From positions 434,001 through 498,000 of the forward strand of contig NZ_CP054493.1 of assembly GCF_015265475.1 (NCBI RefSeq): a stretch of 64,000 nt of DNA, written 5' to 3'. A program made the position numbers and the translations under genes. This stretch comes from Candidatus Sulfurimonas marisnigri (GTDB taxonomy: Bacteria > Campylobacterota > Campylobacteria > Campylobacterales > Sulfurimonadaceae). Below the pieces are notes generated by a model. The model made no database searches. It saw nothing but the letters and a program-made list of their open reading frames with translations, and was not told the DNA's origin. This document shows positions 13,249-18,990 of the stretch, in pieces. Position 1 is the first letter of the stretch. Every line of letters begins with the position of its first letter.

Positions 13249-13722
13249 ATGATACATCCGGCAGTAGCTCATTTTGCAGTATCTCTACCAATCATCTCTT
13301 TAGTCTTAGGATTACTTTACCTTTTCAGACCGACAGAAATAATGTCAAAAATATCAACACGCTTTATAGTATTCGCAGCACTTTTCGTCGTTGTAGCATA
13401 CTTTACAGGTAAAGAAGATGGCAGTGAAGTGTACAAGTTTTTATCTATTGAAGGTAAAGAATTATTAAAAGAGCACGCTCAACTTGGTATGTATTTAGCA
13501 ATTTCGATGACTGTAGTCGCGTTAGTGAAATTTTTTGGTTGTTTAAAAAATATTTTTAAAGTAGAAATTTTAGCAGTTCTCTTACTTGCAGGAATAAGTG
13601 CAGGAATTCTTAGTCAAGGTAAAATTGGTGGTGAGCTTACATACAGCTATGGAGCACATGTAAAGGACCACTCTGAAGGTCGAGCATGCCTTGCTGAAAA
13701 CAGTATGGATGACGAGGAATAA
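13249..13722 (+). CDS. DUF2231-like small membrane protein
   Basis: A 157-residue protein with about four hydrophobic helices. It begins MIHPAVAHFAVSLPIISLVLGLLYLF, the typical opening of DUF2231 proteins in which a His-Pro and later His residues sit near the membrane surface. A His/acidic C-terminus follows the last helix (YSYGAHVKDHSEGRACLAEN). No enzymatic role is established for the family. It stands alone between hisD and the molybdoenzyme operon, with a terminator after it. Confidence 0.75.
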   Translation: MIHPAVAHFAVSLPIISLVLGLLYLFRPTEIMSKISTRFIVFAALFVVVAYFTGKEDGSEVYKFLSIEGKELLKEHAQLGMYLAISMTVVALVKFFGCLKNIFKVEILAVLLLAGISAGILSQGKIGGELTYSYGAHVKDHSEGRACLAENSMDDEE

Positions 13723-13772: not shown

Positions 13773-14019
13773 CGTATTTTTAAATAAAAAAACAACATAA
13801 GTCATATTATATTTCTTCTTCTGCAAATAATCAAATTATACACAAGTATATATTTTTATCATATTTTTATCACTTTTTATAACTAGTTTAAGCTTTATAT
13901 AGGTAGTATTCCCCCAGTAAGTAGTGCTATTATTTTAATAATAAGGACTTCTTTTTTTAGAGATTAGTTATAGTTATAAATCTTAACAATTGCCAAGCAA
14001 AAGGCTACAAGGAGAATAT

Positions 14020-14658
14020 ATGCAATTAGGCTTCCTAGTTGATTTGCATCTGTGTATGGGATGTAAAGGGTGTGAAATCGCATGTAAGGTGGAAAATGAA
14101 GTTCCACTAAGTACATGGAGACTTCGTGTTAAATATGTAGACGTGGGAACTTTTCCAGAAACAAAAAGAACATTTACTCCACTTAGATGTAATCACTGTG
14201 AAAATGCACCATGTGAGAGAATTTGTCCTGTTAGTGCACTACACTATCTTGATAATGGTATTGTAAATATCGACAAAGAGCGTTGTATTGGTTGTGCGGG
14301 CTGTGTTATGGCTTGTCCTTATGGAGCAATTTATATTGATCCTCAAACGCAAACTGCTGATAAATGTACATACTGTGCTCACAGAATTGCATCTAGTATG
14401 ATGCCAGCTTGTGTTGTTGCTTGTCCAGTTCAAGCAAATATCTTTGGTGACCTAGATGACCCTACTTCAAATATATCTAAGTATATAATGAAGAATCAAG
14501 GTGGAGTACAAGTGCGTAAACCTGAAAAGGGAACTAACCCTCATCACTATTATGTAGGTGGCGGTAATGTTGGTCTGAATCCACTTGCATCTCACAGAGT
14601 TGATGGACATTCACTATTTAACAAAATTACAACACTTCCTGTAGGAGGACACCACTAA
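14020..14658 (+). CDS. Four-cluster 4Fe-4S ferredoxin subunit of a molybdoenzyme complex (PsrB/TtrB/NrfC type)
   Basis: A 212-residue electron-transfer subunit with four cysteine clusters: CMGCKGCEIACK, CNHCENAPCERICP, CIGCAGCVMACP and CTYCAHRIASSMMPACVVACP, each fit for a [4Fe-4S]. It carries electrons between the quinone-reactive membrane subunit and the molybdopterin subunit encoded next. I use ATG 14020, with AAGGAGA at 14009-14015, instead of an upstream in-frame ATG at 13990. The stop overlaps the start of the membrane subunit. It has no signal of its own and is probably exported together with the Tat-dependent catalytic subunit. Confidence 0.92.
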   Translation: MQLGFLVDLHLCMGCKGCEIACKVENEVPLSTWRLRVKYVDVGTFPETKRTFTPLRCNHCENAPCERICPVSALHYLDNGIVNIDKERCIGCAGCVMACPYGAIYIDPQTQTADKCTYCAHRIASSMMPACVVACPVQANIFGDLDDPTSNISKYIMKNQGGVQVRKPEKGTNPHHYYVGGGNVGLNPLASHRVDGHSLFNKITTLPVGGHH

Positions 14659-15560
14659 TGGCGGCACATGAAATATTAGCAGCTACAAACGCTGTAGTAA
14701 CTTTAGATGTAGCATTACCAGGTATAGTTTGGCCTTGGTTAGTTACAGTTAATACATGGGCAAAAAGTATTGGTACGGGTGTTATTTTTATGTTGTTTAT
14801 GCTTTTGAGAATGTATCCAAACCAAGCAGAAAAATTAAGACTTCCAACTGCTATAGTAGCATTTGTATTTATTAATATTTTCTTATTATTCACACTTGCA
14901 GACTTGCACCAACCACTCAGAATGTGGCATATATTTGTTTATCCACATTGGACATCTGCTATTGCTATTGGTTCATTTATGGCTTCAGGCTTTTTAGGTC
15001 TGTTGACACTTCTTATATTTTTAGGATGGAAGAAAAATGATGTAGTTTATGATAAAGTTTTATTTTGGACAACGATTCTTGCAATCCCAGTAACACTCTA
15101 TACAGCAGCACTTCTGTCTCAATGTACAGCTCGTGAACTATGGCAAATGCCAGCAGAATCTGCGCAAATGATTTTAGCTGCGCTGCTTTCTGGTGCAGCA
15201 GCTATGATTTTAATTGGCGGAAATAAGCTTACTTATGAGGCTAAACAAACATTAGGCGCAGTTCTTGGTTTAAGTGCATTAATGGCATTTATTATCTATA
15301 TGTCAGAATATGTATTTGGTCCAATGAAAGCAGAAGAAGTTGCAGCTACTTTAGAATACATCAAAGGTGATGGACCATATACTGTTATGTTCTGGTTGGG
15401 TCAATGGATGACTTACATTTTACCAATGTTGCTTATAGTATTAAGTAGAGTAAGTAAAAGTGAAAGTCTTTTAAAACTAGCAGCTATTTTATCACTAGTT
15501 GGTCTAGCTTTAGTTAAACATGTATGGCTAATGATTCCACAATTATTACCAATGAGTTAG
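14658..15560 (+). CDS. NrfD/PsrC-family membrane anchor subunit
   Basis: A 300-residue quinone-interacting anchor with about eight hydrophobic helices. NrfD-type features include WPWLVTVNTWAKSIGTGVIF in the first helix pair, FTLADLHQPLRMWHIFVYPHWTSAIAIGSF, and YTAALLSQCTARELWQ. Such subunits exchange electrons with the quinone pool. The start codon overlaps the ferredoxin stop by one base, and 13 bases separate it from the catalytic subunit gene. Gene order B-C-A matches that of ttrBCA operons. Confidence 0.9.
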   Translation: MAAHEILAATNAVVTLDVALPGIVWPWLVTVNTWAKSIGTGVIFMLFMLLRMYPNQAEKLRLPTAIVAFVFINIFLLFTLADLHQPLRMWHIFVYPHWTSAIAIGSFMASGFLGLLTLLIFLGWKKNDVVYDKVLFWTTILAIPVTLYTAALLSQCTARELWQMPAESAQMILAALLSGAAAMILIGGNKLTYEAKQTLGAVLGLSALMAFIIYMSEYVFGPMKAEEVAATLEYIKGDGPYTVMFWLGQWMTYILPMLLIVLSRVSKSESLLKLAAILSLVGLALVKHVWLMIPQLLPMS

Positions 15561-15573
15561 GGAGAAAAATTTA

Positions 15574-18500
15574 ATGTATTTACAAAGTAGAAGAACATTT
15601 TTAAAAGGCGCTGCATTTACCGTTGCAGGTGCTAGTATTGCAAAGGGTGTATTTACAAGCGATGCGATTGCTGATTCCGTCAGCGATAGTAAGTTTACTG
15701 ATACACCAGACTCATTATCGTTCTATCCTCCTATGGATCAATGGGCTGACTTTAAAGAGCTAGATGGAGATGATTGGAAAAGAGGTGGTATTGAGCGTAA
15801 AGGCGTTAGAAGTGATTCTAATCCAGACGGTATCGAAGTAAATGATTACACTATCGTTCCAACAGCATGTTCAAACTGTGAGGCTTCTTGTGGTTTAACA
15901 GCTTGGATTGATAAGAAAACTTTTACAGTTAAGAAGTATATGGGTAACCCGCTTCACGCAGGTTCTCGTGGTCGTAACTGTGCTAAAGGTTATGCAACAC
16001 AATCTCAAATGTATGATCCGGATCGTATAGCATTCCCACTTAAAAGAGCTCCAGGCTCTGCTCGTGGTGAAGGTAAATGGATTCGTACTACTTGGGACGA
16101 GGCAATGACTACAATCGGTAATAAAATGCATGATGCAATGAAGGGTGACGATGAGTTATCTAAAAAATCATGTATGTTCCATGTTGGTCGTCCAAATGAG
16201 AATGGTTTTACTGGTAAAGTATGGCAAACTCTAGGTCAAGATTGTTTTAATTCACATACAAACATCTGTTCTGCTGGTGGTCGTACGCCTACTATTCAAT
16301 GGGCAAACGATGATAGAAGTTCTCCAGATTGGGCTAATGCGAAACTAATTTTCCTTAACTCGTCTCACGCTGCAGATGCTGGTCACTATTTCCAACAAGC
16401 TGCTGGACATATAGCGGATGCTCGTTCAAAAGGTGCTAAACTTGTAGTTATGGATCCTCGTATGTCAAACTCTGCTGGTATGGCAGATTTATGGATTGCT
16501 GCATGGCCTGGTACTGAAGCTGCAATTTATCTTTACTTAGTTCAACGTATGTTAACTGAGAATAAAGTTAATAAAGCTTTCGTTAAAAAATGGTTTAACT
16601 GGGAAGTTATGATGGATAATAAAAATTATCTAAACTTTATGGTAGAAAAAGGGTATATCTCTAAAGCACCTAAAGGTAACGACTTTGAATCATATTTAGG
16701 TATGCTAAAAGAGCTTTATACTCCATATACACTAGATTATGCTGTAAAAGAAACTCATGTTCCTGCTTATAAATTAGAGCAGTTATATGATATGGTTATT
16801 TGGGCTGATACGTCAGTTTCTACATACTTCTGGCGTGCAGCTGCTGCTGGTAACCTTGGTGGTTGGACATCTGGTCGTACAGGTTTCTTAATGCTTGGCT
16901 TACGTGGAGCAATCGGTCCAGTAGGTGGTACATTCTTCCATCACTTCCATGTTATTTCTGTAGCTGGTAAAGGTGGTAGTGCAACTGTTGGTCAAGGTAA
17001 ACGTGGTTCAGATGTACCTAAAATTGATGTATACAATGAGCTTTCATGGCCGCCAGAATGGCCTTTGTCGACTTATGAGATGTCATACCTTTTACCACAC
17101 CTTCTAGCTGATAAAAAATGGCAGAAGAAATGGCAAGATAAAGGACTAAAGGTAGCTGAGAAACTAGCTGTTTGGATTCCTCGTATGTATAACCCTGTTT
17201 GGATAAATCCAGATGGGTTCAGATGGATAGAGACTATTAAAGACGAGTCTAAAATGGAGTTAACATTTAACTTGTCTCCAGTATGGTCTGAGACTAACTG
17301 GTATGTTGATTATATTTTACCTGTTGGTTTAGCTGGTGAGAGACACGATCAACACTCGGAAGCTACTATGCCTGCAAGATGGACTTCTTTCCGTCAACCG
17401 GTTATGCGTGTTGCTTTAGAAAAAGCTGGATGGAAGCCTAAGAACCCTGCAAGAGCTACACTTGAAGCTCACATTAAAGCTGGTCTTGGTGAAGTTTGGG
17501 AAGAGAATGAGTTCTGGTTTGATATGTGTGTTAACTACATCGACCCTAAGGGTGATATATTCTTAGACGCTGCTAAAACTAAAACTATCAAGTCTATGTG
17601 GGAATCTAAGAAAACTCCTGGTACTCCTGTTACAATTGCAGAGTGGTATAATGCTGCATTTGGTGACAACTTACCAAATCTTAAAAAGACTGCAACAGAA
17701 GATGATAGATATAAAAATGCAGAATTCCCAGTTTATGAGTACATGAGAGATCATGGTGCTTGGATGGAAGAGAACCATATCTACTCTTCTCAAGAGAAAG
17801 TGATTAAAGATGATGGTGAAAACTATATTTCTCACGGTCATAAATACGATAAAAAGCATGTAACTATTGATAAGCGTACGGGTGTTATGACTGCAGATTC
17901 TCATGGCAAGAAAAAATCTATCGGTATTGAAATCGATGGTGTTAAGATGGAAGGTTTCGCAACACTAGACAAAAAACTTGACTTTTTCTGTGAATGGTTT
18001 GCTGATGATTGGAAATGGCCGGAATATGCTATTCCAATTTATCCAAGAAACGAAGAAGAGAAAAAAGAGATGAAAGAGATTGTTTCACATGTAAATCATT
18101 CTTACATGACAGAAAAAGATTCTTATGCTCTAAATACTGTTTTCCGTTTGCCATATAATATTCATACGCGTTCGGCTAACTCTAAGCACTTGATGGAAAT
18201 CTCACAAAACCATGACCCTATCTGGATTTCAACTCCGGATGCTAAACGTCAAGGATTTAAGCGCGGTGATGCGATTCGCGTAAGAATTACAGACAGTATC
18301 ACTGGTTTAGACTCTGGTTACTTTGTGGCTATGGCTGTTCCAACCGAGGGTGTACTTCCTGGTACACTTGCTTGTTCACACCATGGTGGTCGTTGGAAAC
18401 TTGTTAATTCTGTTACTATTCCTAACGGTGTTTCGGACGGTAAGGTTGACTCTCAGCCAGTTGCTAGAAATATGAATGATCCTAAATTTATGGCGCACTC

Positions 18501-18990
18501 ACCTGAAAATGCTGGTAAAGTTGCTGGACAAATTAAGATTGAAGATTATGATGGTACTTCTGGGCTTAATAGCTATGGTGTTCCAACAGCAGAACTACAG
18601 ATGGATGGGAAAGAGGGTAAACTTAAATATATTAAGGGAATTACACCTTTCCATGCAGACAGATTTGCTGATCAAAATAGAGATAGTGGAAATATCTGGT
18701 GGGATGGACTAAGTGGTTCATGGCAAAATGCTGTTGCTGCTGCTCATCCAGATCCAATTTCAGGTATGCATTGTTGGCATCAAAAAGTTATCTTAGAAGC
18801 TGCACAGCCAGGTGACAAGATAGGTGATATCTATGTTAATTATGAAAATAACTTTAAAATATATCAGGGTTGGAGAGACGACCTTACTCGTGGGTTAGAT
18901 GAAAACTCTACACTACGTCGTCCTCAGCACATCAAGAGACCTTGGGTGCCACTTTCAGACAAAGCATATGCTGTAAAAATTACTAAGTAG
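15574..18990 (+). CDS. Tat-exported molybdopterin oxidoreductase catalytic subunit (CISM/DMSO reductase superfamily), substrate unassigned
   Basis: A 1138-residue molybdo/tungsto-enzyme. A twin-arginine signal (SRRTFLKGAAFTVAGA) directs folded export. A [4Fe-4S] motif follows at C99-X2-C102-X3-C106-X29-C136, and Cys232 in NSHTNICSAGGRT is the likely metal ligand. The C-terminus has a molybdopterin-dinucleotide-binding region (about 885-1000). Its length exceeds PsrA/PhsA (about 750-770) and is nearer TtrA or selenate reductase-like proteins. With its B and C partners it should couple the quinone pool to a sulfur oxyanion, polysulfide or metalloid. Codon use favours CGT and GGT, unlike most neighbours, suggesting high expression. 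Substrate cannot be decided from sequence alone. Confidence 0.88.
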   Translation: MYLQSRRTFLKGAAFTVAGASIAKGVFTSDAIADSVSDSKFTDTPDSLSFYPPMDQWADFKELDGDDWKRGGIERKGVRSDSNPDGIEVNDYTIVPTACSNCEASCGLTAWIDKKTFTVKKYMGNPLHAGSRGRNCAKGYATQSQMYDPDRIAFPLKRAPGSARGEGKWIRTTWDEAMTTIGNKMHDAMKGDDELSKKSCMFHVGRPNENGFTGKVWQTLGQDCFNSHTNICSAGGRTPTIQWANDDRSSPDWANAKLIFLNSSHAADAGHYFQQAAGHIADARSKGAKLVVMDPRMSNSAGMADLWIAAWPGTEAAIYLYLVQRMLTENKVNKAFVKKWFNWEVMMDNKNYLNFMVEKGYISKAPKGNDFESYLGMLKELYTPYTLDYAVKETHVPAYKLEQLYDMVIWADTSVSTYFWRAAAAGNLGGWTSGRTGFLMLGLRGAIGPVGGTFFHHFHVISVAGKGGSATVGQGKRGSDVPKIDVYNELSWPPEWPLSTYEMSYLLPHLLADKKWQKKWQDKGLKVAEKLAVWIPRMYNPVWINPDGFRWIETIKDESKMELTFNLSPVWSETNWYVDYILPVGLAGERHDQHSEATMPARWTSFRQPVMRVALEKAGWKPKNPARATLEAHIKAGLGEVWEENEFWFDMCVNYIDPKGDIFLDAAKTKTIKSMWESKKTPGTPVTIAEWYNAAFGDNLPNLKKTATEDDRYKNAEFPVYEYMRDHGAWMEENHIYSSQEKVIKDDGENYISHGHKYDKKHVTIDKRTGVMTADSHGKKKSIGIEIDGVKMEGFATLDKKLDFFCEWFADDWKWPEYAIPIYPRNEEEKKEMKEIVSHVNHSYMTEKDSYALNTVFRLPYNIHTRSANSKHLMEISQNHDPIWISTPDAKRQGFKRGDAIRVRITDSITGLDSGYFVAMAVPTEGVLPGTLACSHHGGRWKLVNSVTIPNGVSDGKVDSQPVARNMNDPKFMAHSPENAGKVAGQIKIEDYDGTSGLNSYGVPTAELQMDGKEGKLKYIKGITPFHADRFADQNRDSGNIWWDGLSGSWQNAVAAAHPDPISGMHCWHQKVILEAAQPGDKIGDIYVNYENNFKIYQGWRDDLTRGLDENSTLRRPQHIKRPWVPLSDKAYAVKITK

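Follow-up and report, generated by a model that had tools for sequence, protein, structure and literature searches.

A long molybdoenzyme operon of Candidatus Sulfurimonas marisnigri, apart from the reference reductase families, as a possible periplasmic sulfite:quinone oxidoreductase

The molybdoenzyme operon analysed here lies at positions 14020-18990 of a 64,000-nucleotide stretch of Candidatus Sulfurimonas marisnigri DNA (contig NZ_CP054493.1, positions 434,001 to 498,000 of the forward strand), hereafter the window; its genes encode an iron-sulfur (Fe-S) subunit B, a membrane anchor C and a catalytic subunit A. Among described systems, ttrBCA also has the gene order B-C-A, and TtrABC shares with the window operon this order, a long A subunit and a periplasmic location; it differs by an identity to A of 22-26% across 22-29% of the protein and by its separate clade. 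PsrABC/PhsABC (W. succinogenes and Salmonella type) likewise combine an Fe-S B subunit with a Cys-ligated A subunit exported by twin-arginine translocation (Tat), and the anchor charges of the W. succinogenes-type PsrC follow the pattern of C, but the identity is 31% across only 22% of the protein, the lengths are 763 versus 1138 residues and the clade is separate. SoeABC (A. vinosum, Aquifex) is similar in its predicted function, Cys ligand, 4Fe-4S subunit and quinone-linked anchor; it differs by its clade, and SoeA-like references have a DmsC-type anchor and the order A-B-C. SoeAB is predicted to be cytoplasmic (PMC8076601). PSRLC3 of green sulfur bacteria consists of two genes (PMC5473276); PMC6338057, with reference to Frigaard and Dahl 2008, describes it as an alternative system for sulfite oxidation. 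Sulfurimonas homologues are named psrABC in the literature (PMC4584964, PMC9122950).

We propose, with a probability of about 0.52, that the window operon encodes a three-subunit periplasmic sulfite:quinone oxidoreductase; the name PsrABC carried by the Sulfurimonas homologues would then be a misassignment. The proposal was reached because the active-site motifs that A has in common with a sister branch of its family suggest a common chemistry, and because this sister branch points to sulfite. B would be exported together with A through Tat, A would convert sulfite to sulfate at a molybdenum centre held by Cys232, and quinone at C would be reduced on the periplasmic face by electrons that pass through the Fe-S cluster of A and then the four clusters carried by B. 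The sister branch would carry out this chemistry in the cytoplasm, with sulfite supplied by a persulfide dioxygenase or by reverse Dsr. The features of the operon, all on the + strand, are as follows.

14020..14658, +: B subunit, 4Fe-4S dicluster electron-transfer protein, 212 residues (list of open reading frames, Pfam)
14658..15560, +: C subunit, NrfD/PsrC-type membrane anchor, 300 residues (Pfam NrfD; loop charges of a periplasmic-facing anchor)
15574..18990, +: A subunit, Tat-type molybdopterin catalytic subunit of an uncharacterised family, 1138 residues (open reading frame, Pfam, trees)
15586..15609, +: twin-arginine motif SRRTFLKG, residues 5-12 of A (sequence)
16180..16194, +: family motif HVGRP, residues 203-207 of A (alignment, motif counts)
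16249..16269, +: family motif NSHTNIC, residues 226-232 of A, the last residue being the candidate Mo ligand Cys232
18376..18396, +: conserved SHHGGRW, residues 935-941 of A (alignment)
18424..18543, +: insert of about 40 residues, residues ~951-990 of A (missing in orthologues of ~1091 residues; low model confidence)
18745..18786, +: family motif HPDPISGMHCWHQK, residues 1058-1071 of A (alignment, motif counts)

The three open reading frames (ORFs) have the B-C-A arrangement of the original prediction, with a one-base overlap between B and C and 13 bases between C and A. Read from its first TTG the B ORF covers 13990-14658; its start was set at 14020 because relatives conserve the ATG at that position (MQLGFLVDL). 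B has 16 Cys in four motifs (counted by reading), and no signal peptide was seen in it. Pfam assigned Molybdopterin, Fe4S4 and Molydop_binding to A, NrfD to C and 4Fe-4S dicluster to B; the operon thus has the components of an NrfD-anchored complex iron-sulfur molybdoenzyme, namely a MopB catalytic subunit, a four-cluster Fe-S subunit (from the Cys motifs) and an NrfD-type anchor. The N-terminus of A reads MYLQSRRTFLKG, and residues C99, C102, C106 and C136, the ligands of its own Fe-S cluster, are invariant in the alignment. An AlphaFold model of A had a mean predicted local distance difference test score of 73.2 and a predicted template modelling score of 0.80, with low confidence in the insert and the N-terminus. 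The length of A was indeed unusual compared with that of PsrA/PhsA (763 residues in W. succinogenes-type PsrA), and it is a family trait: full Campylobacterota orthologues have 1086-1152 residues, and other relatives about 900-1080, a range in which part of the rows had been trimmed at the N-terminus by the script.

The catalytic subunit was compared with reference families in two trees, and it fell in none of the characterised clades tested. The firm placement in a known clade that would have refuted the original prediction did not arise. In a tree of 92 proteins, 15 Campylobacterota sequences (100/100) and 28 other relatives (98/98) formed a single clade (100/100) on a long stem; PsrA/PhsA (8), TtrA-like (5), ArrA-like (4), SoeA-like (3) and DmsA-type (2) proteins were each separate and monophyletic. 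A mixture-model tree of 52 rows, with fewer long branches and with Chlorobia added, gave the same placement, Chlorobia being found among the non-Campylobacterota rows. The two trees disagreed on where the family stands with respect to TtrA, ArrA and SoeA; both ruled out a placement of A within any of the five reference groups. Six of the eight PsrA/PhsA rows exceed the PhsA cut-off, one is annotated as PhsA (E. coli SE11, present in the 92-row tree only) and one is a W. succinogenes-type PsrA. The TtrA-like and ArrA-like rows are full-length, yet under the strict curated cut-offs, and the label SoeA-like is our own, given from the DmsC-type anchor and, in one case, from a neighbouring sulfoacetaldehyde acetyltransferase gene (xsc). 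The trees are without Aquifex or A. vinosum SoeA and without SrdA, ArxA and SreA under their own names; archaeal SreA, SrdA, ArxA and SrrA are grouped with PsrA/PhsA, TtrA or ArrA in PMC10100899. Against the NCBIfam models, A remained below the cut-off of PhsA, its best model (125.7 bits, cut-off 694), of TtrA (49.2 bits, cut-off 1750) and of ArrA (60.8 bits, cut-off 1600). Relatives outside Campylobacterota are 34-38% identical to A across 80-97% of the protein; the nearest outsiders in the tree, both long-branched, were an Azoarcus plasmid enzyme (25.7%) and an uncharacterised Campylobacterota MopB protein of 850 residues. The latter (L254 157-2703, L255 3547-6105) has an RR motif and the sequence LNHRGLC, and branches beside the family. 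In conclusion, A belongs to a family of its own, apart from all reference groups tested.

The original prediction had listed several possible substrates. Trees and curated models gave no support to the tetrathionate, polysulfide and arsenate reductase families; a sulfite-type oxidase was the best supported, although not as SoeA, since the SoeA-like references branch separately and have a DmsC-type anchor, whereas the anchor here is NrfD. A reductase of non-sulfur oxyanions (selenate, arsenate), or an enzyme of manganese-linked electron transfer, is very improbable: Cys-ligated MopB families include such enzymes (PMC10100899) and A is in no known clade tested, but it lies outside the ArrA-like and TtrA-like clades, and the recurrent identified neighbours of its relatives are mostly sulfur genes.

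Cys232, originally put forward as a metal ligand candidate, shares its alignment column with the Cys of reference enzymes (8/8 PsrA/PhsA, 5/5 TtrA-like, 4/4 ArrA-like and 3/3 SoeA-like); the column is Cys in all 15 Campylobacterota proteins and all 28 other relatives of the tree set. It is also inside the segment of about 245 residues matched by the closest solved structure in sequence, the 2vpw molybdoenzyme. The motifs HVGRP, [ND]SHTNxC and GxHxWHQK are common to both branches, and A lies in the PSRLC3-like clade and carries its motifs. NSHTNxC was found in 67 of 80 loci of relatives, 18 of 18 Chlorobia loci, 62 of 88 Campylobacterota loci (where the same genome may count more than once) and none of 61 reference loci. 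The 88 Campylobacterota loci comprise 61 with NSHTNIC, 25 with DSHTNIC and two with neither, hence [ND]SHTNIC in 86. GxHxWHQK was less universal (37/80 loci of relatives, 71/88 Campylobacterota loci).

In Chlorobia, 18 of 35 genomes had a family member (the sample was 35 of 95 FmoA-matching genomes). The genes are typically arranged as fused B-C, A and TauE, followed by DsrE2, rhodanese, TusA, CobB-like, DsrC, DsrA and DsrB; TauE was present in 15 of 18 loci, a DsrAB cluster in 10, and at least one of TauE, DsrE2, TusA, DsrC and DsrAB in 16, gene identities having been scanned in two loci (L356, L360) and transferred to the others via similarity clusters. Because both the two-gene layout and the setting agree, and not by accession, these loci are most likely PSRLC3. 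Like the window operon, they fall in the family clade, carry its motifs and encode a partner with Fe-S and NrfD parts, but they have B and C in one protein, an A subunit without Tat motif, an inverted anchor and often a dsr cluster nearby. The window operon, with three genes, a Tat motif, opposite anchor charges and no dsr, would accordingly be named a member of the branch sister to that of PSRLC3 and not PSRLC3 itself. CT0494-0496 was dropped as a family member: the presumed C. tepidum genome holds none, and its nearest MopB protein, which bears a Tat motif, is 32% identical across about 245 residues.

In the sister branch as a whole, B and C are fused. Any of six sulfur families was found in 41 of 83 non-Campylobacterota loci, and in 21 of the 34 loci with 5 kb on both sides; among these 34, a metallo-beta-lactamase (MBL)-rhodanese protein (persulfide-dioxygenase-like) was present in 13, SulP in 10, TusA in 6, DsrE2 in 5, TauE in 4 and YeeE in 1 (domain identities were established on representatives). 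Rhodanese was also a neighbour. As a background control, 58 MBL genes were counted in 30 of these genomes (~170 Mb), which predicts such a neighbour by chance at about 0.4% of loci; this count used a stricter E-value limit than the census, includes the neighbours themselves and relies on rounded genome sizes. No persulfide-dioxygenase-like gene was found at the 18 Chlorobia loci. Persulfide-dioxygenase-like neighbours in some relatives and dsr in Chlorobia thus place two independent sulfite-forming routes beside the same complex. Other recurrent neighbours of relatives are ArsR-type regulators and an amino-acid ABC transporter; at haloarchaeal loci (L030 1090-2880, L141 1281-3071) the molybdoenzyme is surrounded by rhodanese, TauE, a phosphate/anion permease and a gene of the 5'-nucleotidase type.

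These neighbours could also be those of a periplasmic oxidoreductase working in the oxidative direction on other sulfur species (thiosulfate, tetrathionate, sulfane sulfur or organic sulfur). TusA, DsrE2, rhodanese and YeeE of the sister branch handle sulfane sulfur, and Sox intermediates occur in the Campylobacterota periplasm (PMC4584964). However, sulfite and sulfate are a better match for the dsr operon and for the neighbours TauE and SulP, and A is not within the TtrA-like clade, which leaves this alternative with roughly one chance in six.

The sulfite:quinone oxidoreductase proposed for the window differs from its sister branch by the predicted side of the membrane. That A is a Tat protein, as originally claimed, was supported by SRRTFLKG, and the RR motif recurs across Campylobacterota: a Tat-type motif lies ahead of the conserved block at all 40 other Campylobacterota loci, at none of the 18 Chlorobia loci and in none of the 5 plasmid relatives. 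The search covered 72 of the 80 sister-branch loci (three had no anchor block and five ran off the contig end), and a loose RR pattern was found in five of the 72. Three of these matches are RRYFL/RRYML at the opening of the conserved LVPTxCFNC/LIPTxCFNC block, one (L061) is in an arginine-rich read-through and one (L098) lies before any ATG; given their nature, none was counted as a signal.

The anchors were modelled with eight helices, whose limits were set by hand from the hydropathy plot. All 41 Campylobacterota anchors have more Lys plus Arg on the odd loops (means 9.5 vs 4.1), and in all 69 fused sister-branch anchors the excess is on the even loops and the termini (means 12.5 vs 1.2); C of the window has 4 on the side of the termini and 8 on the opposite side. 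Partners of Tat-type enzymes, namely the W. succinogenes-type PsrC, two TtrC-like anchors and the Azoarcus anchor, have the Campylobacterota charge pattern. From these opposite loop charges and the positive-inside rule it follows that the two kinds of anchor have opposite topologies, with the periplasm as the expected side of the Campylobacterota complex and the cytoplasm as that of the sister branch. An inverted anchor was proposed earlier for SoeC (PMC8076601); here, judging by the loop charges, both orientations are found within one catalytic family, and no report of this was found in the literature surveyed, which was mostly open-access. That one family would work on both faces of the membrane, cytoplasmic with a fused anchor and no Tat signal or periplasmic in Campylobacterota, and in both cases pass electrons from sulfite to the quinone pool, is held tentatively, at somewhat less than even odds.

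The periplasmic orientation and the PsrA-like Cys ligand would also suit a genuine polysulfide or S0 reductase, the published psrABC, whose evolution took place outside the Psr/Phs clade and which links sulfur reduction to the oxidation of H2. PSR homologues are annotated in all sequenced Sulfurimonas (PMC4584964). In the presumed S. denitrificans genome, where frames were found by their Fe4S4 domain and judged by length, the sole long Psr-like MopB protein besides NapA, Fdh-type and NuoG-type frames belongs to the present family; because this genome has no other Psr-like MopB, the psrABC of the literature is presumably this gene. Against a polysulfide reductase, A is outside PsrA/PhsA and far under the PhsA cut-off, and the sister branch is found in actinobacteria, haloarchaea and phototrophs, often near oxidative sulfur genes. 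Furthermore, the 36 genomes with an over-cut-off PhsA and the 37 family-positive genomes, drawn from the same phylum set, do not overlap at all, perhaps from plain ancestry; this non-overlap fits sulfur oxidisers rather than sulfur respirers, with ancestry as a confounding factor. We regard this reductase as unlikely, at about one chance in five. The window genome has six other MopB proteins (PF01568), which are NapA, NuoG, a formate dehydrogenase, two Fdh/Nas-like proteins and a protein of 578 residues; none is a PsrA/PhsA, and this genome gave no match at E 1e-60 for PhsA, 1e-80 for TtrA or 1e-60 for ArrA. The formate dehydrogenase (L185 4467-7295) looks split at a selenocysteine codon: its ORFs of 186 and 749 residues are consistent with such a codon in frame.

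Several observations weigh against sulfite as the substrate of the window complex. First, none of the six sulfur families was present in the 42 Campylobacterota loci (41 plus a Sulfurovum mangrovi plasmid locus; mostly ~8 kb on each side). The substrate is therefore carried over from the sister branch at 34-38% identity, and the missing sulfur neighbours are the main weakness of its assignment. Second, even in the sister branch the neighbours imply sulfite indirectly, persulfide or sulfane sulfur being also possible, and 42 of the 83 non-Campylobacterota loci are without any of the six families, many loci being cut short. Third, S. denitrificans (PMC4584964) and S. hydrogeniphila NW10 (PMC7952632) are reported to be without sorAB and not to grow on sulfite; a working periplasmic sulfite oxidase might have allowed growth in both strains. 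Fourth, SorAB is described for the same job in most Sulfurimonas (PMC7952632), and in the Black Sea psrABC transcripts diverge from those of sqr and soxCD (PMC9122950). Finally, Sulfurovum indicum has four psr clusters, of which psrA3B3C3 is up during sulfur reduction (PMC10045233); none of the four could be mapped to this family. A search for a persulfide-dioxygenase homologue in the window genome, made without positive control, gave no match. No published proposal of sulfite oxidation by the Campylobacterota complex was found in the same, mostly open-access, literature. Periplasmic sulfate reductases have been claimed among Salmonella MopB enzymes (PMC12636705), which shows, as far as that source goes, that other work attributes sulfate/sulfite chemistry to MopB enzymes of the periplasm.

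In the genus of the window, 99 of 100 genomes gave some match and 86 have a real orthologue (counted by reading as strong matches, with a best E of at most 5.7e-85). These orthologues come in two forms, one of about 1138 residues with 81-98% identity and one of about 1091 residues with 58-66%. At the phylum level the family was present in 37 of 249 genomes and 16 of 55 genera (E 1e-50). Outside the phylum, 584 related stretches (genome contigs) were found, 80 of which were kept for analysis; hosts of the sister branch include Actinobacteria, Chloroflexi, Bacteroidetes and haloarchaea. Copies on plasmids occur in Thermomicrobium, Rhodococcus jostii RHA1 and haloarchaea (34-37% identity). Stand-alone MopB genes of about 1130-1145 residues are carried by plasmids of Paraburkholderia, Tritonibacter and Klebsiella (L317 4974-8372, L320 4965-8399, L321 4992-8432), with no Fe-S or anchor gene annotated alongside.

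The ancestral-looking Campylobacterota operon is B-C-A followed by TorD, an Fe-S protein and two small proteins (41 loci, the window and 40 others; TorD in 20, the Fe-S protein in 19). In the window genome this helper module is detached (~1877330-1880400; L194 5333-8399, - strand). It comprises TorD, a 4Fe-4S protein and two proteins of unknown function, and adjoins B-C-A in about half of the Campylobacterota loci; a relative of one helper protein has a weak match to the shikimate-dehydrogenase N-domain. A PiT transporter gene stands beside A in 10 of 41 loci. On the 395-kb Sulfurovum mangrovi plasmid NZ_CP087125.1 (L031 8001-11302), A is split into ORFs of 337 and 737 residues plus a short piece, and is unannotated; either the record contains a frameshift or the gene is broken, the B, C and TorD ORFs being intact. 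A sulfate adenylyltransferase is annotated about 5 kb downstream of this locus.

The codon bias noticed in A was confirmed, A being first in a five-codon composite among the 55 window ORFs; its ranks were 2 for GGT/Gly, 2 for CGT+CGC/Arg, 6 for AAC, 2 for TTC and 34 for TAC. B did not have this bias (GGT rank 41 of 55), and C ranked 5 for GGT and 35 for Arg. Since the strongest composite bias is that of A, the original suggestion of a major protein holds for A, which is probably abundant. The second strongest composite was that of a DUF2231 membrane protein just upstream (window 13249-13722), whose cluster is present in 6 of 42 loci.

Sulfurimonas and their relatives dominate many sulfidic redoxclines and vents. 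Transcripts of psrABC have been interpreted as sulfur reduction (PMC9122950). Such interpretations would be reversed by a sulfite-oxidising function of the enzyme, and psrABC, a widely used marker of Sulfurimonas sulfur respiration, would denote a sulfite-oxidising complex. SorAB has been suggested to carry out the oxidative branch when Sulfurimonas and Sulfurovum disproportionate sulfur, and NW10 is listed as a disproportionator (PMC12998232); the complex would then be a candidate for this branch in strains without SorAB, such as NW10 if it is present there. Opposite membrane orientations within one family would be of general interest for the evolution of respiratory complexes.

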